The translations under genes and the position numbers were made by a program. From Tyzzerella sp. (lineage in GTDB: Bacteria > Bacillota > Clostridia > Lachnospirales > Lachnospiraceae), in NCBI GenBank assembly GCA_017416155.1, contig JAFQDE010000002.1, positions 1 through 33,236 on the forward strand: DNA of 33,236 nucleotides, written 5' to 3'. Every line of letters begins with the position of its first letter. Position 1 is the stretch's first letter. Shown here one piece after another: positions 1 to 33,236 of this stretch. Under the pieces are notes generated by a model. The model was not told the DNA's origin and made no database searches. It saw only the letters and a program-made list of their open reading frames with translations.

Positions 1-141
1 GTCGATGTTCATTTCCTCAAAATATAAATAAGTAAAGATGTCTGCTGCTGATAAAGAGCCGCCCGGATGTCCGGCCTTTGCACTATGTACAGAGGTGATG
101 ATACCCTTGCGGACTTCATTTGCAATTTTTTGAAGTTCTAA
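1..141. repeat. left arm of a 141-bp exact inverted terminal repeat
   Basis: Bases 1-141 are the exact reverse complement of 33096-33236, the last 141 bases of the window. Identity stops precisely where the two transketolase genes differ (third codon, ACT versus AAG). The other ends of the repeat lie outside the window. The length of exactly 141 suggests an assembly-graph overlap rather than a biological terminus. Confidence 0.95.
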
Positions 142-150
142 AGTCTGCAT
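1..150 (-). CDS. tkt: transketolase, N-terminal part (5' end only, runs off the left edge)
   Basis: Reading leftward from the ATG at 150-148, the 50 visible codons begin MQTLELQKIANEVR and carry the GHPGGSLS motif typical of the thiamine-diphosphate domain of transketolase (pentose phosphate pathway, two-carbon transfer between sugar phosphates). A good ribosome binding site (AAGGAG in reverse, 161-166) precedes the ATG. The gene is cut by the window edge, so whether it is a split N-terminal subunit or a full-length enzyme cannot be seen. From codon 4 onward it is identical at the DNA level to the gene starting at 33087, but upstream sequence and the first codons differ (MQT versus MNK), so two genes with separate leaders are likely. 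Confidence 0.85.
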   Translation of the reverse strand, partial: MQTLELQKIANEVRKGIITSVHSAKAGHPGGSLSAADIFTYLYFEEMNID

Positions 151-171: not shown

Positions 172-207
172 TGTTAATAAATGTTATAATCATAACATTC
201 CATAACA
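172..207 (-). promoter_or_regulatory. four-hexamer phased operator of the transketolase gene
   Basis: Hexamers start every 10 bp: TGTTAA at 172, TGTTAT at 182, ATAACA at 192 and ATAACA at 202 (plus strand). Read on the gene's strand this is TGTTAT-N4-TGTTAT-N4-ATAACA-N4-TTAACA, beginning one base after the -10 box. The inner pair forms a perfect inverted repeat with 8-bp arms (180-187 and 192-199). The same layout follows the -10 box of the dehydrogenase operon (1927-1962). Position over the transcription start suggests repression; the protein that binds it is not shown. Confidence 0.7.
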
Positions 208-208
208 G

Positions 209-237
209 ATTTTAAACACAAATAGAGGAAGTGTCAA
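209..237 (-). promoter_or_regulatory. sigma-A-type promoter of the left transketolase gene
   Basis: On the reverse strand TTGACA (237-232), 17-bp spacer, TAAAAT (214-209). This is a perfect -35 with a good -10, about 60 bp upstream of the ATG at 150. Confidence 0.75.
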
Positions 238-430
238 GTGAAGTTTGAGATGATTGTCATATTCCTAGCATCGGCTATCATTGCCTTTCAATGAAAGATA
301 AAAATACTCTTGATGAAAAATGCAATAAAGACTATAATCGGAATACAAATTCAAATATTCAAATATTCTTAATAACAAGTTTTGGCAGTTCGCCGATTTA
401 TTTCTATGTTTGAACAATTAAATAAAGGAA
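238..430. other. intergenic stretch without recognised features
   Basis: AT-rich sequence between the leftward transketolase promoter and the hicAB promoter. It holds a two-and-a-half-copy ATTCAAAT tandem at 349-368 and a 14-codon hydrophobic ORF at 250-294 with no ribosome binding site. Neither is convincing as a functional element. Confidence 0.5.
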
Positions 431-460
431 TTGACACCATATATGACACCGTAATATAAT
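431..460 (+). promoter_or_regulatory. hicAB promoter with TGACACC direct repeat
   Basis: TTGACA (431-436), 18-bp spacer, TATAAT (455-460), then AGGAGGA at 461-467 and the hicA ATG at 478. TGACACC occurs twice, at 432-438 and 444-450, inside the -35/spacer. That is a plausible autoregulatory binding site for HicB, since HicB proteins usually repress their own promoter (family knowledge). Confidence 0.7.
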
Positions 461-477
461 AGGAGGAAGAATTATTT

Positions 478-732
478 ATGTCAAAGTGGGATAAATTATT
501 ATATCGAATCAAAAATTTGTCGTCAGATTTGCGATTCGATGAATTAAGGAAGGTACTTGAAGAGTATGGTTACATAATGAATAGCCCCCAAAGTGGAAGT
601 AGTCATTATACATTTAGAAAAGCGGGTTGTAGGCCTATCACTATTCCAAAGCATAAAACAATAAAAAAAGTATATGTTGAAATGGTAAAAGGTATTGTTG
701 AAAGTGAGGAACAAAATAATGAAAACAATTGA
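478..732 (+). CDS. hicA: HicA-type mRNA interferase toxin
   Basis: 84 aa. HicA toxins are small RNases with a double-stranded-RNA-binding-like fold that cleave mRNA when not bound by HicB. The protein shows the family layout: an N-terminal helix (LRKVLEEYGY), then a G-S-S-H-Y-T-F segment holding the catalytic histidine (about residue 43), then IPKHKTIKKVYVEMV. It is somewhat longer than minimal HicA proteins (about 60 aa) because of an N-terminal extension. The start has AGGAGGA ten bases upstream. The last 14 bases overlap the antitoxin gene, the usual toxin-first order. All expected catalytic features seem present, so it is probably active. Confidence 0.85.
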   Translation: MSKWDKLLYRIKNLSSDLRFDELRKVLEEYGYIMNSPQSGSSHYTFRKAGCRPITIPKHKTIKKVYVEMVKGIVESEEQNNENN

Positions 733-1081
733 TTATTATATGAATTTACCTTATAGAATGGAAATTATTCCTGATAAGGAGGAGGGAGGATATGTAGCAT
801 CCTTTCCTGACTTGCCGGGATGTATTACTATTGGCGACACAATTGAGGAAACAATACAAAATATTATTGATGCAAAAAAAGTATGGTTAGAATCAGAGTT
901 AGAAATAGGAGCGACTATACCAGAGCCAGATGATTTAAAAGAATATTCCGGACAGTTTAAATTGCGGCTTCCAAAAAGTCTGCACAAACAACTTGCAGAA
1001 AAATCGAAAATGGAAGGTGTTAGCATGAATCAATATTGTGTATATTTGCTTTCGATGAATGACGCTTTAAGCAGAGTATAA
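719..1081 (+). CDS. hicB: HicB-type antitoxin with C-terminal ribbon-helix-helix/HicB DNA-binding segment
   Basis: 120 aa from the ATG at 719, which lies inside the end of hicA and has GTGAGGA just upstream; an in-frame codon at 695 lacks such a site. The N-terminal part has the HicB core (YRMEIIPDKEEGGYVASFPDLPGC), a degenerate RNase-H-like fold that caps the toxin. The C-terminal part (about residues 80-115, FKLRLPKSLHKQLAEKSKME followed by GVSMNQYCVYLLS) is a HicB/Arc-type DNA-binding domain. It forms an operon with hicA and probably autoregulates the promoter at 431-460. Confidence 0.88.
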   Translation: MKTIDYYMNLPYRMEIIPDKEEGGYVASFPDLPGCITIGDTIEETIQNIIDAKKVWLESELEIGATIPEPDDLKEYSGQFKLRLPKSLHKQLAEKSKMEGVSMNQYCVYLLSMNDALSRV

Positions 1082-1156
1082 AGAAACGATTGCCATGTAT
1101 GATTTCTGAAAGCCTTAACGTATATTGTGGTTTTGATAAGTATAGGAGGAAGAAGA

Positions 1157-1870
1157 GTGAAGTTTGAATATGTATCAAATGCAGGAATAATGCTTGAAGT
1201 GAGCGGGAGGCAAATAGGAATCGATTGTTTATGCAAAGATTCCACAAAATTATATCAAGACACACCACCTCAAATCCGTGAGGGATTAAAACCAGACATC
1301 ATTATATTCACACATGAGCATGAAGATCATTTTTGCGCGGAGTATGTGAAGGAAGTGTGGGAGAGAAATCCAAACATGCAAATCTATTCCACCAAGAGAG
1401 CGATAGAGATTATGCAAGGAGAGAATATTCCATTCACCAATCTTCATCAATTAGCAGACGGAGAGGTGCTGGAATTTGAAAGCTTATACATTAAATTTAT
1501 GGAAAGTGTCCATGAAGGTGAGCAATATTCAGATGTTCAGAATTTTACTCTTCTTATAAATAAGGAAGATAAGAAATTGGTAGTAACCGGCGACGCAATG
1601 CCATGCAAGGAGTTATTCGAAAGAATCAGCAAGTGGTCATCTCGCATTGATTGGTTCTTTGCACCATTCCCGTATGTGGGCTTACGTTCGACGAGAAAGT
1701 TGATAAGTGAACACCTAGATATCGAGAATATTTTCGCCCTACATCAACCACGACCGGAGGCTGATAAGCAGGGTTGGGTAGCCAACACGAAGCGAGTGTG
1801 TGAGGTGGCTAAGGATAGCTTGCCACAGCCGATTTTCCCTGAAAAACTTGGGGAATGGTATTGTATGTAA
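1157..1870 (+). CDS. metallo-beta-lactamase-fold hydrolase
   Basis: 237 aa from GTG at 1157, chosen because AGGAGGA (1144-1150) sits 6 bases upstream; an in-frame GTG at 1127 has no such site. The protein carries the zinc motif HEHEDH (residues 53-58), a later histidine in SVHEGEQ, TGDAMP with the bridging aspartate, and ALHQPRP with the last histidine, so the metal centre looks complete. This resembles the UlaG/YtnP-like branch of the fold, but the substrate cannot be read from sequence. It stands alone between hicAB and the dehydrogenase operon, with no clear terminator after it. Confidence 0.8.
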   Translation: MKFEYVSNAGIMLEVSGRQIGIDCLCKDSTKLYQDTPPQIREGLKPDIIIFTHEHEDHFCAEYVKEVWERNPNMQIYSTKRAIEIMQGENIPFTNLHQLADGEVLEFESLYIKFMESVHEGEQYSDVQNFTLLINKEDKKLVVTGDAMPCKELFERISKWSSRIDWFFAPFPYVGLRSTRKLISEHLDIENIFALHQPRPEADKQGWVANTKRVCEVAKDSLPQPIFPEKLGEWYCM

Positions 1871-1897
1871 AAAAGTACATAAATAGCAAAATAATTC

Positions 1898-1926
1898 TTG
1901 ACAAAAGAAGGATAAGGATATACATT
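1898..1926 (+). promoter_or_regulatory. promoter of the 2-oxoacid dehydrogenase operon
   Basis: TTGACA (1898-1903), 17-bp spacer, TACATT (1921-1926). The operator at 1927 begins immediately after the -10 box; the E2 start codon follows 80 bp downstream behind GGGAGG. Confidence 0.72.
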
Positions 1927-1962
1927 TGTTATGAAATGTTATAAATGCAACAAAATCTAACA
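1927..1962 (+). promoter_or_regulatory. four-hexamer phased operator of the dehydrogenase operon
   Basis: TGTTAT at 1927, TGTTAT at 1937, GCAACA at 1947 and CTAACA at 1957, each separated by exactly 4 bp. The arrangement, phasing and position right after the -10 box match the transketolase operator (172-207 read in reverse). The first two hexamers and their GAAA/GGAA spacers are nearly identical. Candidate regulator: the DeoR-family protein encoded at 7562 in the same operon (inference). Confidence 0.65.
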
Positions 1963-2005: not shown

Positions 2006-3649
2006 ATGGCAGAAGGCGTATTAATGCCAAAGGCTGGTATCACCGTTGAAGAATGTGTGATTACCGAATGGTTGAAAAAACCAGGCGACCAAGTTGCAGT
2101 GGGCGATATTCTTTTCACCTACGAAACAGACAAAGCAACATTTGAGTGCGAGTCTACAGCAGCAGGAACATTGCTCGAAATCTTCTATAATGATGGAGAC
2201 GAAGTTCCAGTATTAGTAAATGTATGTGCAATCGGAAATCCAGGTGATGATGTATCCGCATTAAAAGGAGCATCTGGGGAGGCAGCACCGGCAGCAGCGG
2301 CTCCGGCACCAGAAGCAGCACCAGCACCGGCAGCAGCACCGGCAGCACCGACAGGTCCTGTAGCACAGGGAGTATTGATGCCAAAGGCTGGTATCACAGT
2401 TGAGGAATGTATCATTACAGAGTGGCTGAAAAAAGTAGGCGACCAAATTTCAGTAGGTGATATCCTCTTTACATATGAAACAGACAAAGCAACATTTGAG
2501 TGCGAGTCTACAGCAGCAGGAACATTGCTCGAAATCTTCTATAATGATGGAGATGAAGTTCCGGTATTAGTAAATGTATGTGCAATCGGTAACCCGGGAG
2601 ATTCCACAGTAGGATTAAGAGCAGGAGAAGAAGCACCTGTAGCAGCACCAGCAGAAGCAGCTCCGGCAGCAAGTGCAGCACCTGTTGCAGCAGCGACACC
2701 TGTGGCAGCGGTAGCGGCAGCAGCTAATCCAGATGCAAAAGTATCTCCAAGAGCTAAGATGATCGCAGAGACACTTGGTGTTGACCCAACTCAGGCAGCT
2801 CCAACAGGTCCATACGGACGCGTAATCGAAAGAGACGTAAGAGCACTTGCACAGGCTCAGGCACTTTCGCCTGCAGCAGCTCCAGTAGCAGAAGCAGCAC
2901 CTGCAAAAGCAGAGGCACCAGCAGCGGCTCCAGTAGCAGCAGCTCCGGAAGCAGATTATGTTGATGAGAAATTCTCAGCAATTCGTAAAGCAACTGCAAA
3001 AGCAATGGTTCGTTCGCTCAGCACAATGGCTCAGCTTACACACCAGCATTCATTCGATGCAAGTACAATCTTGAACCTCAGAAAACAGCTTAAGGCAAAT
3101 GGTGAAGCAATGGGTATGCCAAACATCACAATCAACGACCTTGTTATGTTTGCAGTATCTCGTGTAATCCTGAACCACCCACAACTGAATGCTACAATGC
3201 CTGAGGAAAACATGATTCGTAAATACAATAACGTACACCTTGGTATGGCAGTAGATACACCAAAGGGACTTATGGTTCCGACAATTTTCAACGCCAACAA
3301 GTTATCTCTTGCTGAACTTTCTATCGAAGCAAAACGTCTTGCAAAACTTTGCCAGGAAGGAAAAGCAACTCCGGACATGTTATCAGGAGCAAGCTTTACT
3401 GTTTCTAACGTAGGTTCACTTGGCGTAGAAGTATTTACACCAGTAGTTAACCCACCACAGGTTGGTATCCTTGGTGTATGCGGTACTACAACACGTATCA
3501 AAGAAGTGAATGGAGAAATCAAGACATATCCGGGAATGAATCTCTGCTTGTCATATGACCACAGAGCATTAGACGGAACACCGGCTTCTAAGTTCATGAA
3601 AGAACTTTGCCAGGCACTTGAAAACTTCTCATTATTAATGATGAAATAA
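2006..3649 (+). CDS. pdhC: 2-oxoacid dehydrogenase E2, dihydrolipoamide acyltransferase with two lipoyl domains
   Basis: 547 aa. E2 forms the core of the dehydrogenase complex and passes the acyl group from E1 to CoA by lipoyl arms. Domains in order: lipoyl domain 1 (about 2-80, lipoylated lysine K43 in ETDKA), Ala/Pro linker, lipoyl domain 2 (about 120-198, K161), Ala/Pro linker, peripheral subunit-binding domain (about 240-285, VSPRAKMIAETLGVD), linker, and catalytic acyltransferase domain (about 320-547) with the active-site motif DHRALDG near the C-terminus. The start has GGGAGG upstream. It is the first gene of the operon, which is unusual because E1 normally leads. Acetyl transfer is most likely; other 2-oxoacids or acetoin cannot be excluded. 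Confidence 0.9.
   Translation: MAEGVLMPKAGITVEECVITEWLKKPGDQVAVGDILFTYETDKATFECESTAAGTLLEIFYNDGDEVPVLVNVCAIGNPGDDVSALKGASGEAAPAAAAPAPEAAPAPAAAPAAPTGPVAQGVLMPKAGITVEECIITEWLKKVGDQISVGDILFTYETDKATFECESTAAGTLLEIFYNDGDEVPVLVNVCAIGNPGDSTVGLRAGEEAPVAAPAEAAPAASAAPVAAATPVAAVAAAANPDAKVSPRAKMIAETLGVDPTQAAPTGPYGRVIERDVRALAQAQALSPAAAPVAEAAPAKAEAPAAAPVAAAPEADYVDEKFSAIRKATAKAMVRSLSTMAQLTHQHSFDASTILNLRKQLKANGEAMGMPNITINDLVMFAVSRVILNHPQLNATMPEENMIRKYNNVHLGMAVDTPKGLMVPTIFNANKLSLAELSIEAKRLAKLCQEGKATPDMLSGASFTVSNVGSLGVEVFTPVVNPPQVGILGVCGTTTRIKEVNGEIKTYPGMNLCLSYDHRALDGTPASKFMKELCQALENFSLLMMK
2123..2199 (+). repeat. 77-bp exact direct repeat within E2, first copy
   Basis: Identical to 2477-2553, 354 bp (118 codons) downstream. 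It covers the lipoylation site region of both lipoyl domains. Identity even at third codon positions points to recent duplication or gene conversion. Confidence 0.92.
2477..2553 (+). repeat. 77-bp exact direct repeat within E2, second copy
   Basis: Second copy of the 2123-2199 sequence, in lipoyl domain 2 around K161. Outside the exact block the domains still match closely at the protein level but diverge at synonymous sites. Confidence 0.92.
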
Positions 3650-3662
3650 GGAGCATAAGAAA

Positions 3663-5027
3663 ATGGTAAAATCAGATGTATTAGTACTCGGCGGTGGTCC
3701 GGGCGGATACCTTGCAGCAGAACGTGCTGCACAGGGTGGTAAGAAAGTAACTCTGATTGAGAAACGTGCACTTGGCGGAACATGCCTCAACGAAGGATGT
3801 ATCCCATCAAAAGCACTTCTTAACTCAGGAAAACTCTACGAGCATGCAAAAGAAAGCGAAGTGTTCGGTGTAACAGCAGAGAATGTAAAAATCGACCACT
3901 CAAAAGTTGTTGATCGTAAAGATAAAGTAGTAAAAATGCTTGTATCAGGCGTTGGCGCTACGATGAAAGCACACGGCGTAAACGTTGTTATGGCTGAAGG
4001 TGTGATCAAAGGAAAAACAGCAGACGGATTTGTTGTAACAGCAAACGGCGAAGAATATGCAGCAGATAAATTAATCCTTGCTTGCGGTTCTGTAGCAGTT
4101 GTTCCACCAATTCCGGGACTTCGCGAAGGTTTGGCAGACGGATTCGTTATGACAAACCAGGAAATCCTTGATATGAGAACAGTTCCAAAACACTTAACTG
4201 TAATCGGTGGTGGTGTTATCGGTCTAGAGCTTGCATCATACTTCAACATGATTGGTGTAGAAGTTGCAGTAATCGAAATGTTAGATAAGATTGCAGGACC
4301 TACAGAGAAAGAAATCTCTACAGCACTTCTCAAAGAATACAAGAAAAAAGGAATTGATTTCAAACTCTCTTGTAAGGTTACAGAAGTTGGAAAAGACTGC
4401 GTAGTTTACGAAGAAGCAGGCGAGATCAAGACTATCAAGACAGATGCAGTTCTCTGTGCAATCGGAAGACGTGCACTTACTCAGAACATGGGTATCGAGA
4501 ACCTTGGTGTATACATGGAAAGAGGAGCAGTTGTTACAGATGACAACATGCAGACAAACGTTCCTGGAGTATACGCAGTTGGTGATATCAATGGTAAAAT
4601 CATGTTGGCTCACACAGCATACCGTGAGGCAGAAGTTGCTGTGAACCACATCTTAGGTAAGAAAGATTACATGAGATACAATGCAATTCCATCTGTTATC
4701 TATACACAGCCTGAGATTGCAAGCGTTGGTGAGACAGAAGAAAGCGCAAAAGCAAAAGGTATGGATGTTAAATGCGTGAAGGCAACAATGAAGATGTCTG
4801 GACGTTACTTGGCAGAAGTTGAAAAAGGCGATGGATTCTGCAAACTAGTAATCGATACTAAGAAAAACTGCTTAGTAGGATGTCACATGATCGGAAGCTA
4901 CACATCAGAAATGATTTACGGTGCAGCTCTTATGATTGAAAAACAGATGCCAATCGAACAGATTAAAGAATTGGTATTCCCACATCCAACAGTCTCTGAA
5001 GTAATCAGAGAAGCATTGTTTTTATAA
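3663..5027 (+). CDS. lpdA: dihydrolipoamide dehydrogenase (E3)
   Basis: 454 aa, full length for the family. E3 reoxidises the dihydrolipoyl groups of E2 using FAD and passes electrons to NAD+. Visible features: N-terminal FAD-binding GGGPGGYLAAE (from residue 10), redox-active disulfide C41-LNEG-C46, NAD-binding GGGVIGLELA near residue 180, a second FAD contact (YAVGDINGK), and the C-terminal dimerisation domain ending with the catalytic HPTVSE motif. It lies 13 bp after E2 with GGAG upstream. Unlike some E3 proteins it carries no N-terminal lipoyl domain. Confidence 0.95.
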   Translation: MVKSDVLVLGGGPGGYLAAERAAQGGKKVTLIEKRALGGTCLNEGCIPSKALLNSGKLYEHAKESEVFGVTAENVKIDHSKVVDRKDKVVKMLVSGVGATMKAHGVNVVMAEGVIKGKTADGFVVTANGEEYAADKLILACGSVAVVPPIPGLREGLADGFVMTNQEILDMRTVPKHLTVIGGGVIGLELASYFNMIGVEVAVIEMLDKIAGPTEKEISTALLKEYKKKGIDFKLSCKVTEVGKDCVVYEEAGEIKTIKTDAVLCAIGRRALTQNMGIENLGVYMERGAVVTDDNMQTNVPGVYAVGDINGKIMLAHTAYREAEVAVNHILGKKDYMRYNAIPSVIYTQPEIASVGETEESAKAKGMDVKCVKATMKMSGRYLAEVEKGDGFCKLVIDTKKNCLVGCHMIGSYTSEMIYGAALMIEKQMPIEQIKELVFPHPTVSEVIREALFL

Positions 5028-5055: not shown

Positions 5056-7539
5056 ATGCCAAAATCATTATATGTTGATCCAAATAAGATGCGTGCTGAA
5101 GGAAAAATCCAGTTTAAAGATATCCCAGTAAACGTATACAAAAAATCAGTAAAAGAAGAATTAAAAGAAGGTAACTTTACAAAAGAAGATTTAATCCGTA
5201 TCTTCCGTGATATGACAATCTGTCGTGAATTCGAAGATATGTTAAATCAAATCAAAACACAGGCTAAATATGCTGATGTTGAGACTACATATCCGGGTCC
5301 GGCTCACCTTTCTCTTGGACAGGAAGCAGCTGCTGTAGGACAGGCTTATTTATTAGGAAAAGAAGACTTCACATTCGGTAGCCATAGAAGCCATAGTGAA
5401 ATTCTTGCAAAGAGTTTATCATGTATTCAAAAGCTCAGCGATGAGGAACTTATGGAAGACATGAAGAGCTTCTTCGACGGAGCTACATTAAACGGTATTC
5501 TTCAAGACAGCAAAGCTGGAGATGATGTAAAAGAATTAGCAATCGAATTCATCCTTTACGGAGCACTTTCAGAGTTATTTGCTCGCGAAAATGGTTTCCA
5601 CAAAGGACTTGGTGGTTCAATGCATGCATTTTTCCTTCCATTCGGTGTTTATCCAAACAACGCATTGGTAGGTGGTTCTGCAACAATCACAACAGGTGCA
5701 GCTCTCTTCAAGAAAGTGAACGACAAAGAAGGTGTATGTATCGCTAACTTAGGTGATGGTTCTATGGCTCGTGGTCCAGTTTGGGAAGCACTTTCATTTG
5801 CAACTATGGACCAATACAAAACACTTTGGGAAGAAAGCAAAAACGGTGGACTTCCACTAATCTTCCACATCAATAACAACAGTTATGGTATGGGTGGACA
5901 GACATGTGGTGAAACTATGGGTTACGGCGAACTTGCACGTATGGGTGCAGGTGTTACTGAAAGCCAGTTACACGCAGAAAGAATCGATGGTTACAATCCA
6001 TTAGCAGTTATCGATGCTTACCGTCGTAAATTGCCATTGGCTAAGAGCGGTGAAGGCCCTGTATTCTTAGATGTAGTAACATACCGTCTCCTTGGACACT
6101 CTACATCTGACCAGAATGCATACAGAACAAAAGAAGAAATCGATGCTTGGAAAGAACAAGATCCATTGGTAACATACAGAAAAGCACTTGTAGAAGCTGG
6201 CGTTGCTGATGACAGCGTATTCGAAGAAATCTGGGCAAAAACAAGAGAAAGAATGGCTCGTATCTGCCGCTTAGCAGCTGATAAAGAGAAAACACCATAT
6301 CTTGATTTTGTGAAAGATCCTGCAATCGTTGAACGTATGATGTACAACAACGGAAAACAACGCAGTATGGACACAACAAGAGAAGCAGCCGTAACAGGAC
6401 CAAAGGAAAGCTGTAAACGTTACACAGATATTCTTAAGAAAGTTCGTACACACTACGATGCAAACGGAAAAGAAGTAAGTGCTATGAAACGTTACAACAT
6501 CCGTGATGCTATCTTTGAACCAATGTTCAATAAATATTATGAAGACCCAACACTCATCTCTTATGGTGAAGATGTTCGTGACTGGGGCGGTGCATTTGCT
6601 GTTTACCGTGGATTTACAGATGTAATTCCTTACTCAAGACTATTCAACTCACCAATTGCTGAAACAGCTATTGTTGGTACAGCAGTTGGTTACACAATGT
6701 GCGGTGGACGTGCGGTTGTTGAACTTATGTACGGTGACTTTATCGGATGCTGTGGAGATGAAATCTTCAACCAGATGGCTAAATGGCAGGCGATGAGTGC
6801 AGGTATCCTCAAGATGCCATTAGTACTCCGTGTATCTGTTGGTTCTAAATACGGTGCTCAGCACTCTCAAGACTGGACAGCTATGTGTGCTCATGTACCG
6901 GGACTTAAGGTTTGCTTCCCTGCAACACCTTATGAAGCAAAAGGTTTGATGCAAGCTGCTCTTAACGGAACAGACCCAGTTGTATTCTTTGAAAGCCAGA
7001 GAATCTACGATATTGGTGAAAAATTCCATGAAGGCGGAGTTCCGGAAGGTGAATATGAAATCGAGATCGGTGATGTTAACATCGTTAAACCGGGTTCAGA
7101 CATCACAATGCTCACAATCGGTGCAACTCTTTACCGTGCATACGAAGCGGCAAAAGAGTTAGAAGAAAAATATGGAGTATCTGTAGAGTTAATCAACTTA
7201 CACAGCTTGGCTCCACTTGATTACACAAAGATTATTGAATCTGTTAAGAAGACAGGTAAAGTGGTTATGGCTTCTGATGCTTGTGCAAGAGGTTCATTCC
7301 TTGATGATGTTGCTAAGAACATTACAGAACTTGCATTTGATTACTTAGATGCACCTCCTGTAATCGTAGGAGCTCAGAACTGGATTACACCTCCATTCGA
7401 GTACGATGAATTCTTCTTCCCACAAAAAGAGTGGATTATGGATGCAATTAATGAAAAGATTATGCCACTAGAAGGATACAAACCACTTACAAACGTAACA
7501 CCTGTAGAACAGATGAGAAAGTTGAAAATGGGTGTTTAA
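5056..7539 (+). CDS. 2-oxoacid dehydrogenase E1, fused alpha and beta subunits (probably pyruvate dehydrogenase)
   Basis: 827 aa. E1 decarboxylates a 2-oxoacid with thiamine diphosphate and acylates the E2 lipoyl group. Residues about 40-440 match E1-alpha: the TPP motif begins at G233-D-G and ends at the asparagine run HINNN (about 272). Residues about 480-820 match E1-beta (LISYGEDVRDWGG, then SPIAETAIVGTAVG). The alpha and beta chains, usually separate genes in alpha2beta2 E1s, are joined here without a stop or overlap. It lies 28 bp after E3 with AAGGAGA upstream. The substrate is an inference: pyruvate is favoured by the clean E1/E2/E3/LplA set, while acetoin or branched-chain 2-oxoacids remain possible because these E1s are related. 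Confidence 0.85.
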   Translation: MPKSLYVDPNKMRAEGKIQFKDIPVNVYKKSVKEELKEGNFTKEDLIRIFRDMTICREFEDMLNQIKTQAKYADVETTYPGPAHLSLGQEAAAVGQAYLLGKEDFTFGSHRSHSEILAKSLSCIQKLSDEELMEDMKSFFDGATLNGILQDSKAGDDVKELAIEFILYGALSELFARENGFHKGLGGSMHAFFLPFGVYPNNALVGGSATITTGAALFKKVNDKEGVCIANLGDGSMARGPVWEALSFATMDQYKTLWEESKNGGLPLIFHINNNSYGMGGQTCGETMGYGELARMGAGVTESQLHAERIDGYNPLAVIDAYRRKLPLAKSGEGPVFLDVVTYRLLGHSTSDQNAYRTKEEIDAWKEQDPLVTYRKALVEAGVADDSVFEEIWAKTRERMARICRLAADKEKTPYLDFVKDPAIVERMMYNNGKQRSMDTTREAAVTGPKESCKRYTDILKKVRTHYDANGKEVSAMKRYNIRDAIFEPMFNKYYEDPTLISYGEDVRDWGGAFAVYRGFTDVIPYSRLFNSPIAETAIVGTAVGYTMCGGRAVVELMYGDFIGCCGDEIFNQMAKWQAMSAGILKMPLVLRVSVGSKYGAQHSQDWTAMCAHVPGLKVCFPATPYEAKGLMQAALNGTDPVVFFESQRIYDIGEKFHEGGVPEGEYEIEIGDVNIVKPGSDITMLTIGATLYRAYEAAKELEEKYGVSVELINLHSLAPLDYTKIIESVKKTGKVVMASDACARGSFLDDVAKNITELAFDYLDAPPVIVGAQNWITPPFEYDEFFFPQKEWIMDAINEKIMPLEGYKPLTNVTPVEQMRKLKMGV

Positions 7540-7561: not shown

Positions 7562-8317
7562 ATGAATCAGATTCGTAGAGAAAAAATACGAAAATACATT
7601 CAAGAAAAGGGTGCCGTATCTATCAAAGAACTCACTGAACTCTTTCCAGATGTGAGTGTTATGACCATTCATCGTGACCTTGCAAAATTGGAGGAGGAGA
7701 GACTGATTATCCGTACCAGGGGAGGTGCCATGGCATTGAATTACCATGGTGTGACCGAAGGAAAGCTTGAGACCAGAATGCAGAGTAATGTTGTGGAAAA
7801 ACGCGATATCGCTCAAAAGGCACTGGGGCTTATTTACACGGACAGTACGGTATTCTTTGACGCAGGGACTTCCTGCATGACATTAGCTCAGGCATTGCCT
7901 GATATTGAACTGAATATTTTTACTACGGCACCAAATATAGCAGTACAATTATCCCATTTAGTAAATCCTACGATTCATATGTGTGGAGGCACGCTGAACC
8001 GCGCAAACCAAGCGGTATCAGGTGCCAGCACACTGGCAATGTTGGAGCATATTAATATTGCAACAGCGTTTATCGGTGTTTCCGGTTATACGCCGGACGG
8101 TGGATTTACCTGTGGTAAGGAAGATGAGATGCAGGTAAAACGTCTCATTATGAAAAAAGCAGCTCGCAAGGTAATTCTTATGGACAGTTCCAAATGCGGA
8201 AAGATTTTCCCATATATGTTTGGGCAAATGGAAGATGTTGATTACGTCATCAGCGATGGAAACCTGCCAGAGGAATTTTTGAAACTTGCAGAAGAAGCGA
8301 ATGTAACTGTATTATAA
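7562..8317 (+). CDS. DeoR/GlpR-family transcriptional regulator
   Basis: 251 aa, normal length. An N-terminal winged helix-turn-helix (about 5-58, KIRKYIQEKGAVSIKELTEL, then MTIHRDLAKLEEE, then TRGGA) is followed by a DeoR C-terminal sensor domain (isomerase-like fold, DAGTSCMTLAQ near 100). This family normally senses sugar phosphates. It lies 22 bp after E1 and 15 bp before lplA, so it is probably cotranscribed with the dehydrogenase. Such placement suggests local control of this operon, and the phased TGTTAT operators at 1927 and 172 are its best candidate sites. That link is inferred, not shown. Confidence 0.88.
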   Translation: MNQIRREKIRKYIQEKGAVSIKELTELFPDVSVMTIHRDLAKLEEERLIIRTRGGAMALNYHGVTEGKLETRMQSNVVEKRDIAQKALGLIYTDSTVFFDAGTSCMTLAQALPDIELNIFTTAPNIAVQLSHLVNPTIHMCGGTLNRANQAVSGASTLAMLEHINIATAFIGVSGYTPDGGFTCGKEDEMQVKRLIMKKAARKVILMDSSKCGKIFPYMFGQMEDVDYVISDGNLPEEFLKLAEEANVTVL

Positions 8318-8332
8318 TCGAAAGGAAATCGT

Positions 8333-9346
8333 ATGAGGAATTATTTTGTAGAAAGCAACGAATATAATCCTTGGAAAAACCTGGCGATAGAAAAACACCT
8401 GGCTGACAGCGTTCAGTCAGGTGATTTATTATTCTATTTATGGCAAAACGACAAAACTGTTGTTATCGGACGCAACCAAAACGCACTCAGAGAGTGCAAG
8501 GCTGGGCTCTTGGAAGAAGACGGTGGCTATCTCGCTCGCAGAACTACCGGTGGCGGTGCGGTTTATCATGATATGGGCAATCTGTGTTTCACCTTTTTGG
8601 CTTCCCCGGAGCGCTATGACCTTGAGCGGCAGATGAAGGTGATTCAGATAGCATGTCGGAAGTTTGGTATTGAGACTGAGTTTTCAGGAAGAAATGATGT
8701 TATTACAAAAGATGGATATAAGTTCTCGGGAAATGCATTTTCGGTCAATAAGACATGTAAAATCCAACACGGGACATTGATGATAGATTTAGATAAAGAG
8801 AAGCTTTCGCGCTACTTGACTCCATCGGAGGAGAAGATGAAGGCGAAAGGCGTAAAATCAGTAGAGTCCAGAGTCTGTAATCTGAAAGACCTGAATGCAG
8901 AGATTACGGTTGAGGCAATGAAAATGGCACTTCTGGAAGCATTTACAGAAGTGTACGGCGAGTATGAACGAATCGGACTTGTGGAGGATGCAGATGCATG
9001 TACTTGTGCGGGATCGTGTGGTGTCGGCAATGTCAGAATATGTCGTTTAACAACGCAGGAGTTCCGTGAAATCTATGACTTATACGCATCCTGGGATTGG
9101 CGTTATGGCAAGTCGCCGGAGTGTGAAGTGGTTTACAGTAAACGTTTTTCATGGGGTGAAGTGCAGGTGCATCTGAAACTGAAAAACCTGTATATTGAAG
9201 AGTGTAAAGTGTATTCGGATTCGTTAGATGCGGAATTCCCGGATAAATTAGAAAAAGTGCTCCACAATCAGCGGTTCGACATGAAAGATGTGGAAACTGA
9301 TGATGAAAAAATAAGTGAGGTAATAAAATGGTTGGCGCAGGAGTAA
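8333..9346 (+). CDS. lplA: lipoate-protein ligase A
   Basis: 337 aa. LplA activates free lipoate with ATP and attaches it to the lysine of lipoyl domains, here presumably K43 and K161 of the E2 in the same operon. Visible features: the RRTTGGGAVYHD signature (about 69-80), GRNDV and the TKDGYKFSGNAF lysine region, and a C-terminal accessory domain (about 250-337). Between the two lies an unusual cysteine cluster (C223, C225, C229, C237) not expected in typical LplA. The start follows GAAAGGAAA by a few bases. It is the last gene of the operon, and its stop codon lies in the loop of the terminator at 9335-9358. Confidence 0.92.
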   Translation: MRNYFVESNEYNPWKNLAIEKHLADSVQSGDLLFYLWQNDKTVVIGRNQNALRECKAGLLEEDGGYLARRTTGGGAVYHDMGNLCFTFLASPERYDLERQMKVIQIACRKFGIETEFSGRNDVITKDGYKFSGNAFSVNKTCKIQHGTLMIDLDKEKLSRYLTPSEEKMKAKGVKSVESRVCNLKDLNAEITVEAMKMALLEAFTEVYGEYERIGLVEDADACTCAGSCGVGNVRICRLTTQEFREIYDLYASWDWRYGKSPECEVVYSKRFSWGEVQVHLKLKNLYIEECKVYSDSLDAEFPDKLEKVLHNQRFDMKDVETDDEKISEVIKWLAQE

Positions 9347-9471: not shown

Positions 9472-10455
9472 ATGAAGAAGAGATTACTTTCACTTTTGCT
9501 TGTAGTTGTGTTTGTGTTTGCACTTGTTGCATGTGGTAACACAGATGGAGACGGAGAAAAGAAAAAATCTACAAAAATGACAATGGGTACAGGTGGTACA
9601 GCAGGTACATATTATGGTTACGGCGGAGTTCTTGGACAATATATTAAGAACAAAGCAGGTATCGAAGTAACAGTTGTTTCTACAGACGGTTCTAAGGCTA
9701 ACATCCAAGGTATTGATGCAGGTAACTATCAGCTTGGTACAGTTCAATCTGACGTTATGGCATACGCTTGGGAAGGAACTCGTGCATTTAAAGAAGATGG
9801 AAAAGTGGATTCATTCCGCGTAGTTGCAGGTCTTTACGCAGAATCTGTACAACTTATTACAATGAAAAAAGATATTAAAACAGTTGCTGACTTAAAGGGT
9901 AAAACAGTTTCTATTGGTGCTCCTGGTTCAGGTGTGTACTTCAATGCAATTGACGTACTTGAAGCAGCAGGTCTTTCAGAAAAAGATATCAAACCACAGT
10001 ATCAGTCATTCGCTGACAGTACAGATGCTCTTAAAGATGGAAAAATTGATGCTGCATTTATCGTAGCAGGTGCTCCAACTCCGGCTATCACAGAGCTTTG
10101 CACAACAAACGATGCATATTTAGTACCAATCGATGGTGCTGTTTCTAAGAAACTTATGGATTCTTGCCCATTCTATACAGAATATGTGATTCCAGCAGGA
10201 ACATACGAAGGACAAGATAAAGACGTAACAACAGTTACGGTAAAGGCTACATTGATTGTAAGTGCTTCAGCAACAGAAGAAGATGTTTACAATTTAACAG
10301 CAGCTATCTTTGATAACATCGATGCGATTAAAGCAGAAAACGGAAAAGGTGCAGAACTTAGCGTCGAAAACGCTACAAGTGGTATGACAGTTCCATTCCA
10401 CAAAGGAGCAGCTAAGTATTTCAAAGAAAAAGGCGTTGAAGTTGAAGCAAAATAA
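9472..10455 (+). CDS. TAXI-family TRAP transporter solute receptor (lipoprotein)
   Basis: 327 aa. It captures a substrate outside the membrane and delivers it to the fused TRAP permease encoded next. The N-terminus is a lipoprotein signal (MKKRLLSLLLVVVFVFALVA followed by C21), so it is anchored to the outer face of the membrane. The mature part begins MTMGTGGTAGTYYGYGGVLG and continues with DLKGKTVSIGAPGSG, both hallmarks of TAXI (NMT1-like) receptors. The substrate is not readable; studied TAXI receptors mostly bind dicarboxylates or amino acids such as glutamate. A 12-bp hairpin separates it from the permease gene and may keep receptor expression higher. Confidence 0.9.
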   Translation: MKKRLLSLLLVVVFVFALVACGNTDGDGEKKKSTKMTMGTGGTAGTYYGYGGVLGQYIKNKAGIEVTVVSTDGSKANIQGIDAGNYQLGTVQSDVMAYAWEGTRAFKEDGKVDSFRVVAGLYAESVQLITMKKDIKTVADLKGKTVSIGAPGSGVYFNAIDVLEAAGLSEKDIKPQYQSFADSTDALKDGKIDAAFIVAGAPTPAITELCTTNDAYLVPIDGAVSKKLMDSCPFYTEYVIPAGTYEGQDKDVTTVTVKATLIVSASATEEDVYNLTAAIFDNIDAIKAENGKGAELSVENATSGMTVPFHKGAAKYFKEKGVEVEAK

Positions 10456-10473
10456 GCGTAGTAATGATTTCTT

Positions 10474-10500
10474 TGGCTGTGGCGAAATTCGTCGCAGCCA
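10474..10500 (+). terminator. intercistronic hairpin (attenuator or mRNA-stabiliser)
   Basis: A 12-bp stem from TGGCTGTGGCGA (10474-10485) and TCGTCGCAGCCA (10489-10500) with loop AAT and two G-U pairs. Only TTT follows, so it is a weak terminator at most. Such hairpins between receptor and permease genes often set their expression ratio. Confidence 0.5.
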
Positions 10501-10523
10501 TTTCAATGTAACAGGAGGTATCT

Positions 10524-12476
10524 ATGAATTTTTTTAAGAAAAAAGTTGCCACAGGACAACCGACAGAAGCAATGGATTTAGATGCAGTAATGAAGAAATT
10601 TGACCGTGAGTCCAATGTTCGTGTGTGGGAAGGTGTTCCGAGAATTCTAGTGAGTATTGTTTTGGCAACATTTGCTCTATTCTGTATTTATGTGACACTT
10701 TTCACCAGCTGGTTGGAGGAGATTCGTCTCACGTCATTTATGGCATTTATCATACTCATCGGTTATCTTGTGTTTCCAGTGAAAAAGGGACAGCAGAAGG
10801 TTAATTCAATGCCATGGTACGATTGGATACTCATGATTCTTGGTACAGGATCGTTCCTGTATTTCACATGTAATGCAATGAGCATTATTCAGCAGGGAAG
10901 TAGATTTGATTTTTATCAGGTGATTATCGGTATTGTTGGTGTACTTTCTTTGGCAGAGGTGTGTCGTCGAAGCGTAGGACTTCCAATTTTGTTTGTGGCA
11001 GGTGCGCTCTTAATCTATGCGCTTATTGTATTGCCTAACCCAACACTTAGTGGAAAACTTACATATATGATTTCTTACTTGTTCTACAGCAAGGAAGGTA
11101 TCTTATCAACACCGGTTAATGTGTGTTCGAAATTTATTGTCGTATTTATTATATTTGGTTCTTTTTTGGAGAGAACAGGTATTGCAGACTTTTTCATTAA
11201 TATTTCAAATGCAGTTGTAGGTGGATTCTCGGGTGGTCCTGCGAAGGTTGCCGTAGTTGCAAGTGCAATGGAAGGTATGGTTTCCGGTTCTTCTGTAGCA
11301 AATACAGTTGGTTCCGGTTCGGTTACAATTCCTCTTATGAAGAAAACAGGATACAAACCGGAGTTTGCAGCGGCAGCAGAGGCATCCGCTTCTACAGGTG
11401 GTCAGATTATGCCACCGATTATGGGTGCTGCAGCATTCTTAATGGCTGACTATGTTGGTGTTCCTTACAGTAATATCGTAGTTCGTGCGATTCTACCGGC
11501 AGTACTTTATTTTGCAGGTATCTTTATCGCAGTACATTTGGAGGCGAAGAAAGAGGGTCTTCGCGGATTGACAAAAGAAGAGTTACCTAAGATTCTTCCA
11601 CTTCTTAAGAAGGTGTATTTGCTAATACCATTGATTCTATTAATTTACTTAGTAGGAACCAGCCAACGTTCGATTCAATACGCAGCGGCGATTGCGATTG
11701 TTGCAGCGATTATCGTAAGTCTTTTTAATAAGGAAAATCGTATTACACCAAAGAAAATATTCGAGGCGCTTGCAGCAGGTGGTCAGGGTATGATTACAGT
11801 TGCGGCAGCTTGTGGTGTAGCAGGTATTATTGCAGGAACGATTACTATGACAGGTCTTGCAAACATGATGATTAACGGTATTGTTCAGTTGGCAGGAAAC
11901 CAGGTGATTATTGCATTATTCCTTACAATGCTTTGTTGCATCGTTCTCGGTATGGGTGTTCCGACAACAGCAAACTACTGTATTATGGCGGCAACTTGTG
12001 CTCCGATTTTGATTCGTATGGGTGTTCCGGCATTGGCGGCACATTTCTTCGTATTCTACTTTGGTATCGTGGCAGACTTGACGCCACCGGTAGCATTGGC
12101 AGCTTACGCAGGTGCGGCAATTGCTCAGGCAAATCCGATGAAGACAGCATTTACGGCAACAAAGCTTGCAATTGGTGCGTTTATCGTACCGTATGTATTT
12201 GCACTTAACCCTGCAATGCTCTTTATCGATACAACAGTAGGCGAGGTAGCATTAATTTGTATCACCTCACTCGTAGGAATTTTTGCAGTTTCATCTGCGC
12301 TTGAGGGTTATTTCTTACATCATATGAGATGGTATGAGAGAATCGTGTGTGTAATTGGTGGCTTGTTGCTCATCTATCCAGGTATAGTTACAGACGCAAT
12401 TGGTCTTGGAATGGTGGCAGTTGTTTTTGTTGCACAGATTCTGACAAAAAAGAAAAGCGTAAATGTTATGTCATAG
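10524..12476 (+). CDS. TRAP transporter permease, fused 4TM/12TM
   Basis: 650 aa, the usual length for the fused small (DctQ-like) and large (DctM-like) membrane subunits that go with TAXI receptors. The N-terminal roughly 50 residues are cytoplasmic, followed by about four hydrophobic helices (50-190) and then a DctM-type core with GGFSGGPAKVAVVASAMEG, SGSSVANTVGSG and ASASTGGQIMPPIMGAAAFL, typical of TRAP large subunits. It uses an ion gradient rather than ATP. AGGAGGT lies upstream of the start. The downstream terminator at 12501 closes this operon. Confidence 0.92.
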   Translation: MNFFKKKVATGQPTEAMDLDAVMKKFDRESNVRVWEGVPRILVSIVLATFALFCIYVTLFTSWLEEIRLTSFMAFIILIGYLVFPVKKGQQKVNSMPWYDWILMILGTGSFLYFTCNAMSIIQQGSRFDFYQVIIGIVGVLSLAEVCRRSVGLPILFVAGALLIYALIVLPNPTLSGKLTYMISYLFYSKEGILSTPVNVCSKFIVVFIIFGSFLERTGIADFFINISNAVVGGFSGGPAKVAVVASAMEGMVSGSSVANTVGSGSVTIPLMKKTGYKPEFAAAAEASASTGGQIMPPIMGAAAFLMADYVGVPYSNIVVRAILPAVLYFAGIFIAVHLEAKKEGLRGLTKEELPKILPLLKKVYLLIPLILLIYLVGTSQRSIQYAAAIAIVAAIIVSLFNKENRITPKKIFEALAAGGQGMITVAAACGVAGIIAGTITMTGLANMMINGIVQLAGNQVIIALFLTMLCCIVLGMGVPTTANYCIMAATCAPILIRMGVPALAAHFFVFYFGIVADLTPPVALAAYAGAAIAQANPMKTAFTATKLAIGAFIVPYVFALNPAMLFIDTTVGEVALICITSLVGIFAVSSALEGYFLHHMRWYERIVCVIGGLLLIYPGIVTDAIGLGMVAVVFVAQILTKKKSVNVMS

Positions 12477-33086: not shown

Positions 33087-33236
33087 ATGAACAAGTTAGA
33101 ACTTCAAAAAATTGCAAATGAAGTCCGCAAGGGTATCATCACCTCTGTACATAGTGCAAAGGCCGGACATCCGGGCGGCTCTTTATCAGCAGCAGACATC
33201 TTTACTTATTTATATTTTGAGGAAATGAACATCGAC
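33087..33236 (+). CDS. tkt: transketolase, N-terminal part (5' end only, runs off the right edge)
   Basis: 50 codons are visible from ATG at 33087, with TTAGGAGG upstream, beginning MNKLELQKIANEVR and containing GHPGGSLSAAD. It lies 19 bases after recR without its own clear promoter, so it is probably read through from dnaX or recR. From codon 4 the DNA is identical to the left gene (1-141, reversed). The left copy has its own operator-controlled promoter, so the two copies, if both are real, would be regulated differently. Truncated by the window edge. Confidence 0.85.
   Translation, partial: MNKLELQKIANEVRKGIITSVHSAKAGHPGGSLSAADIFTYLYFEEMNID
33096..33236. repeat. right arm of the 141-bp exact inverted terminal repeat
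   Basis: Exact reverse complement of 1-141. It starts at the first base after the two differing codons of the transketolase gene and continues to the window edge. Confidence 0.95.

Follow-up and report, generated by a model that had tools for sequence, protein, structure and literature searches.

The dehydrogenase island and its phased arrays

The window, by which we mean the whole stretch of DNA that was analysed, is an entire contig (C16 of the assembly) of 33,236 bases. It carries a gene island organized around a 2-oxoacid dehydrogenase operon in the order E2-E3-E1-deoR-lplA, with a second, divergent promoter facing a transketolase gene at the contig end (Table 1). The lipoate–protein ligase is present in 13 of 19 clustered sequences, and the metallo-beta-lactamase-fold hydrolase (cluster 6) in 6 of the 19, several of these sequences being cut short. 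E1 and E2 score below all curated NCBIfam cut-offs, including the pyruvate-specific ones (best E2, 348.4 of 722 bits; best E1, 229.2 of 321 bits), and their substrate, whether pyruvate, acetoin or another 2-oxoacid, is therefore not assigned. A HicA/HicB toxin–antitoxin pair sits between the transketolase-side array and the hydrolase; since HicB has no match at the corresponding locus of one related genome (G007, L029) or in a fragment of another (G097, L089), the pair looks, from these sequences, like an insertion. Directly downstream of the ligase, at 9472-12476, lie genes for a TAXI-type TRAP transporter binding protein and then a large, likely membrane protein.

Table 1. Coordinates of features in the window, with the basis of each assignment
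Feature	Position	Strand	Basis or detail
Transketolase N-terminal gene, 5' part (50 codons), runs off contig	1..150	minus	NCBIfam and Pfam matches, below cut-off for the fragment
Predicted transketolase-side operator, TGTTAT-ggaa-TGTTAT-gatt-ATAACA-ttta-TTAACA	207-172	minus	direct reading
Transketolase promoter	209..237	minus	-35 TTGACA 237-232, 17-bp spacer, -10 TAAAAT 214-209
HicA/HicB toxin–antitoxin pair	478-1081		PF07927; HicB families
Metallo-beta-lactamase-fold hydrolase	1157..1870	plus	domain search
Dehydrogenase operon (E2) promoter	1898..1926	plus	-35 TTGACA 1898-1903, 17-bp spacer, -10 TACATT 1921-1926
Predicted dehydrogenase operon operator, TGTTAT-gaaa-TGTTAT-aaat-GCAACA-aaat-CTAACA	1927-1962	plus	direct reading
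E2, dihydrolipoyl acyltransferase, two lipoyl domains	2006..3649	plus	NCBIfam/Pfam domain search
E3, dihydrolipoyl dehydrogenase	3663..5027	plus	TIGR01350 above cut-off
E1, alpha-beta fusion of 2-oxoacid dehydrogenase	5056..7539	plus	NCBIfam/Pfam domain search
DeoR-family repressor, proposed reader of both operators	7562..8317	plus	PF08220 and PF00455, linkage, fold match
Lipoate–protein ligase (lplA), last gene of the conserved module	8333..9346	plus	TIGR00545 above cut-off
Other transketolase copy, 5' end, behind recR, without array	33087..33236	plus	sequence comparison

Both arrays are read directly from the sequence as quartets of hexamers in steps of exactly 10 bp, just as an earlier sequence-only reading of this DNA had described them. 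That reading also placed them at the same distance from the -10 box in two unrelated promoters, a statement that needs some adjustment: the distance agrees to within one base (a gap of one base at transketolase and of none at E2), and the promoters, though they do differ, are divergent, lie about 1.75 kb apart and flank one gene island. With up to three mismatches allowed, the quartet pattern is found at just these two places in the window (each matched on both strands), against a mean of 0.01 matches in shuffled windows (n = 100), and no third place came up in a scan of the assembly (2,067,222 bases, 84% complete) at the same threshold. Scored on the 20 letters of their half-sites, the arrays reach 20 and 19, and the runner-up place in the window reaches 15.

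Two probable copies of transketolase

The first 150 bases of the window (minus strand) and the last 150 bases (plus strand) both begin a transketolase, identical from codon 4 on; in other words, the contig ends are near-identical transketolase 5' ends in inverted orientation. To judge from these ends, the genome probably has two transketolase copies at which the assembly broke, and the same break is seen in G007 (C43 and C94). A Pfam search of the window's own assembly returned no full transketolase copy and one weak match on C28. An assembly that omits the repeat should give just this outcome, and the second copy is for the same reason a probable one.

The array adjoins the island copy of transketolase, and the recR-linked copy is without one. 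The island copy has the same arrangement in G097 and G007, where the array scores 19 and 17 of 20 letters, respectively (with one mismatch in three of the four half-sites in G007), and where the -35 box, the spacer length and the -10 box of the promoter are the same as in the window. The other examined copy in these genomes scores 12 of 20 (G097) and 10 of 20 (G007) and has no array. A broader survey of 27 genomes, 26 of which had at least one match, gave 39 transketolase matches; 30 of these came with loci, and all 30 were examined. Among the examined loci, all in other genomes, the array is present at two (L093 and L094), both beside the dehydrogenase; the other 28, which include the duplicates L099 and L100, score 13 or less. 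Three related genomes, the window's own (G000), G007 and G097, have the transketolase array, and it was found in no other. The sequence-only reading had made transketolase a target of the shared operator, and it does have an array at its promoter; the copy concerned, however, looks like a second one beside the dehydrogenase and is not the recR-linked gene, and its co-regulation looks like a lineage-specific, local addition as far as the compared sequences go.

Linkage of the array to a DeoR-family gene

The protein encoded at 7562..8317 scores above the cut-offs for the N-terminal DeoR-type winged helix (PF08220, 56.5 bits against 21) and the C-terminal DeoRC sensor domain (PF00455, 149.5 bits against 31.8), and below that of the E. 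coli DeoR equivalog (NF007961, 110.1 bits against 244). A structure model built with 18 sequences (mean pLDDT 88.9) has E. coli DeoR (7L6L) as its best fold match, followed by ribose-5-phosphate isomerases (RpiA). The string MT[IV]HRDL is present in 17 of 18 aligned DeoR proteins.

A scan of genome contigs with the DeoR protein gave 18 loci, including the G007 contig (L029), which together with the window and a locus in G022 (L027) make up 20 distinct loci; these are related to each other and do not represent 20 independent events. The DeoR relatives at these loci are 65-86% identical to the window's protein, and deoR lies directly before E2 in 18 of them (L030 to L046 accounting for 17), the exceptions being the window and L029. 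Two checks had been proposed along with the sequence-only reading, for conservation of the array upstream of orthologous operons and for its co-occurrence with orthologues of the DeoR-family protein, and both came out in favour of it. TGTTA half-sites phased at 10 bp stand at the dehydrogenase operon promoter in 20 of 20 loci (strong in 18 and weak in L042 and L043), and no DeoR relative among them lacks the array. The shared operator is thus supported, with the qualification that the conserved unit is TGTTA and not the full TGTTAT hexamer. When the quartet pattern alone was searched, with DeoR not used, it matched a site in another genus (G022); 3 bases separate the end of this site from a deoR gene with 73% identity to the window's. 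Of 22 distinct genomes, 12 have an exact TGTTA triple, 12 sites in all, and the coordinates put every one of these immediately in front of deoR (duplicate assemblies with identical coordinates, G429 = G370 and G436 = G255, being counted once). In the two weak loci, the repeat before deoR reads TGTTA(G/T)-N4-TGATAT-N4-TGTTAG with one mismatch in the middle unit, and no TTGAC was found before these deoR-side repeats. A quartet of 18 of 20 letters lies between deoR and E2 in both (L042, 10820-10905; L043, 10775-10860), which suggests a separate internal promoter.

Among the 10 genomes of the genus, the same two carry DeoR (E <= 1e-30) and E2 (E <= 1e-60), and among 397 genomes of the family, DeoR is found in 4 (E <= 1e-70) and E2 in 8 (E <= 1e-120). 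Four of the eight E2-bearing genomes have DeoR together with the array: the window's genome, G022, G255 and G370. Two genomes with the dehydrogenase, G197 and G243, have neither an array (scores of 10 and 13 of 20) nor a DeoR match. In G358, the gene for a 34-35% identical DeoR immediately precedes E2, and upstream are degenerate TGTTA repeats spaced by about 20 bp (L069, 590-670), which is suggestive only of a possible distant version of the same switch.

G097 carries both arrays, and DeoR was not found in this 61%-complete assembly, whose contig breaks off early in E3, 58 residues of which can be read. An alternative hypothesis would therefore be that a different DeoR-like or unrelated regulator from outside the island reads the arrays, with the local DeoR controlling something else. 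Arrays with no visible DeoR in G097 are in line with this. We nevertheless consider such an outside regulator unlikely, as DeoR, the dehydrogenase and the array are found together at 20 loci, exact TGTTA triples are found only before deoR, and the half-site matches that of E. coli DeoR.

A register grid fixed to the promoter

With the first base of the -35 box as origin and the start of each hexamer as its register, the window, G007 and G097 occupy 29/30, 39/40, 49/50 and 59/60. The loci L027 and L030-L032 occupy 10, 20, 30, (40), 50 and 60, where 40 is a one-mismatch TGTGAA and L030 is without 60, and L044-L046 occupy 10, 20, 50 and 60, with the last unit turned round. In L033-L041 the registers are 10, 20, 30, 51-52 and 61-62, an offset of one to two bases between two blocks that takes them off the exact 10-bp grid. 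A 17-bp spacer fits best in 22 of 22 promoters (16-18 tried), and in the genomes with deoR first the second half-site overlaps the -10 box. Within the window's group, made up of the window, G007 and G097, the array keeps its distance from the -10 box; over the wider set of loci it is the phase relative to the promoter that is kept, apart from the offset in L033-L041, on registers that differ between lineages.

This geometry also bears on the possibility that the arrays are Rex sites and thus serve redox control. The inner pair TGTTAT-N4-ATAACA resembles the Rex consensus TTGTTAANNNNTTAACAA given in PMC8457756, in which TGTTA also occurs, and Rex is encoded in the window's genome. In the window's group, an inner pair with Rex spacing stands at registers 40/50, and L027 and L030-L032 have a degenerate version of it (TGTGAA-N4-ATAACA); three promoters (G007 E2, G097 E2 and G097 transketolase) match 11 of the 14 consensus letters. 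However, none of 27 regions exceeds 11 of 14 letters of either form of the Rex consensus tried, and the two in the window match 10. Furthermore, L033-L041, with blocks 21-22 bp apart, are without a Rex-type inner pair and keep the direct repeats, and Rex accounts neither for these direct repeats nor for the linkage to deoR. Rex as the reader of the arrays is thus disfavoured by geometry, and we regard it as very unlikely. Its distribution does not discriminate between the readings, because 8 of the 10 genus genomes, all 10 of which have Rex, are without the dehydrogenase island and have no dehydrogenase promoter to compare. Given the Rex-spaced inner pair, dual control by DeoR and Rex at the promoters of the window's group would still be compatible with the sequences.

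Column identities taken from 19 promoters in four groups are 0.81-0.91 in the half-sites, 0.52-0.72 in the spacers and 0.31-0.34 in the 60 bases before the -35 box. In 23 of 27 regions there are half-site pairs with the same orientation and an exact 10-bp step, 48 in all, against a shuffle control with a mean of 0.04 and a maximum of 1 in 500; the four regions with no exact pair are L042, L043, the G007 transketolase promoter and G358. A smaller count, with the G007 transketolase promoter, L036, L045, L046, two internal sites and G358 left out, gives 41 pairs in 18 of 20 regions. An explanation of the repeats by common descent or by the AT-richness of promoter DNA, with no operator at all, can hardly be right: the region does look AT-rich to the eye, and the loci are related to each other, but neither would be expected to leave half-sites better conserved than spacers and flanks, such an excess of pairs over the shuffles, or the array at two differing promoters of one genome.

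Extent of the regulon

A three-hexamer pattern with one mismatch (23 genomes, 21 distinct) gave 10 distinct matches off the island, compared with 16 for the reversed control. A TGTTA triple (24 genomes, 22 distinct) gave four, all with a mismatch (G000 C10, G007 C68, G438 C11 and G440 C41), compared with five for the control. The sites in G000 and G007 (L125 and L126) share no neighbouring gene by eye. Off the island, a near-identical TGTTATTTTATGTTATT motif is present in L144 (G440) and L145 (G438). Across the family, a loose pattern matched in 11 of 397 genomes and its reversed control in 9; it lies at the dehydrogenase operon in four (G000, G022, G255 and G097) and elsewhere in seven (G275, G280, G223, G273, G160, G424 and G371). 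Away from the island, therefore, the patterns match roughly as often as their reversed controls, and the loose pattern alone is not specific. A wider regulon was rejected on this ground, and the regulon looks local. At two loci, L052 (G275) and L055 (G280), phased repeats rich in TGTTA precede genes that look by eye like FeoB-type iron transporters, and these repeats are possibly sites of a different regulator.

A proposed local switch

We propose, with a probability of about 0.85, that both arrays are operators of the DeoR-family repressor predicted at 7562-8317, which would control its own operon and, in this lineage, the adjacent divergent transketolase copy. The sequence-only reading had singled out the same protein, a choice for which conservation, linkage, the position of the array before the protein's own gene in relatives, and identity of the half-site with that of deo all argue. 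The gene lies inside the operon that the protein would control, so that autoregulation may be expected. The arrays, their conservation, their linkage to DeoR, their position at promoters and the domain content of the protein come directly out of the computation, and from them we infer binding, repression, an oligomer and a ligand. DeoR-family repressors act over the -10 box and answer to phosphorylated intermediates, according to PMC12632272. Here, each TGTTA half-site would be read by one winged-helix domain, and with half-sites one helical turn apart, several domains could lie on one face of the DNA. A repressor that adjoins or covers the -10 box and the start region would block RNA polymerase by promoter occlusion. 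Release would come about when the RpiA-like C-terminal domain binds a ligand, which is probably a sugar phosphate or an intermediate.

The proposal thus provides a regulator and an operator for a 2-oxoacid dehydrogenase island that few members of the family possess (8 of 397 sampled genomes with E2). It suggests that the dehydrogenase answers to a signal of the sugar-phosphate type, and that the co-controlled transketolase is a spare copy. The further idea of the sequence-only reading, that the regulator links pentose phosphate flux to acetyl-CoA production, is a conjecture, with E1 and E2 reaching no curated cut-off that would mark the enzyme as a producer of acetyl-CoA. In the open-access literature, we found no paper that combines DeoR with the dehydrogenase. 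If DeoR is the reader, could the operator be a ruler, a grid of about one turn fixed to the -35 box on which DeoR assembles cooperatively over four to six half-sites, with neither phase nor promoter changing as lineages move by two turns to other registers? The two assemblies of this genome, separated by about 1.75 kb, might then bridge, and a pentose-phosphate signal could switch both the dehydrogenase complex and a dedicated second transketolase. We put this forward as a speculative and rather unlikely extension.

Comparison with known systems

Clostridial Rex operators share with the present arrays the TGTTA half-site and the spacing of the inner pair (PMC8457756), but they are single palindromes, TTGTTAA-N4-TTAACAA, of which at most 11 of 14 letters are matched here, and they leave the direct repeats unaccounted for. 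Within the DeoR family, tandem repeats are mentioned for the AxgR site in PMC8579813, and the motifs of DeoR-family RhaR regulators are described in PMC3870299 as repeats with a period of 10-11 bp. In the same paper, purified RhaR of Chloroflexus aurantiacus bound a 38-bp fragment with four tandem sites and was released by L-rhamnulose. RhaR of C. aurantiacus and other DeoR-family RhaR proteins thus resemble the present system in their tandem half-sites with a period of about one turn, and differ from it in the half-site (TCGAAA), in the target, a rhamnose operon, and in having a tandem repeat where direct and inverted units are mixed here.

A further close likeness is to E. coli DeoR and deoCABD. 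The deo operators, taken from K-12 DNA, are TGTTAGAATTCTAACA, 659 bases before deoC, and TGTTAGAATACTAACA, 60 bases before it; the E. coli operator string had no match in the searched papers. They share the TGTTA half-site and an inverted pair at a 10-bp step (TGTTA-N6-TAACA), as in the inner pair at transketolase. The repressor site lies over the -10 box in E. coli as well (PMC12632272), and the C-terminal fold of DeoR is shared with the model of the window's protein. In contrast, the deo operators are single inverted pairs, whereas a single promoter here has between four and six registers in phase, with units in direct and in inverted orientation, and the target genes differ from the dehydrogenase island. 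One-turn-phased operators of the DeoR family are already known and the present switch looks like a solid but fairly ordinary local one, of which the promoter-locked register grid is the least ordinary aspect.
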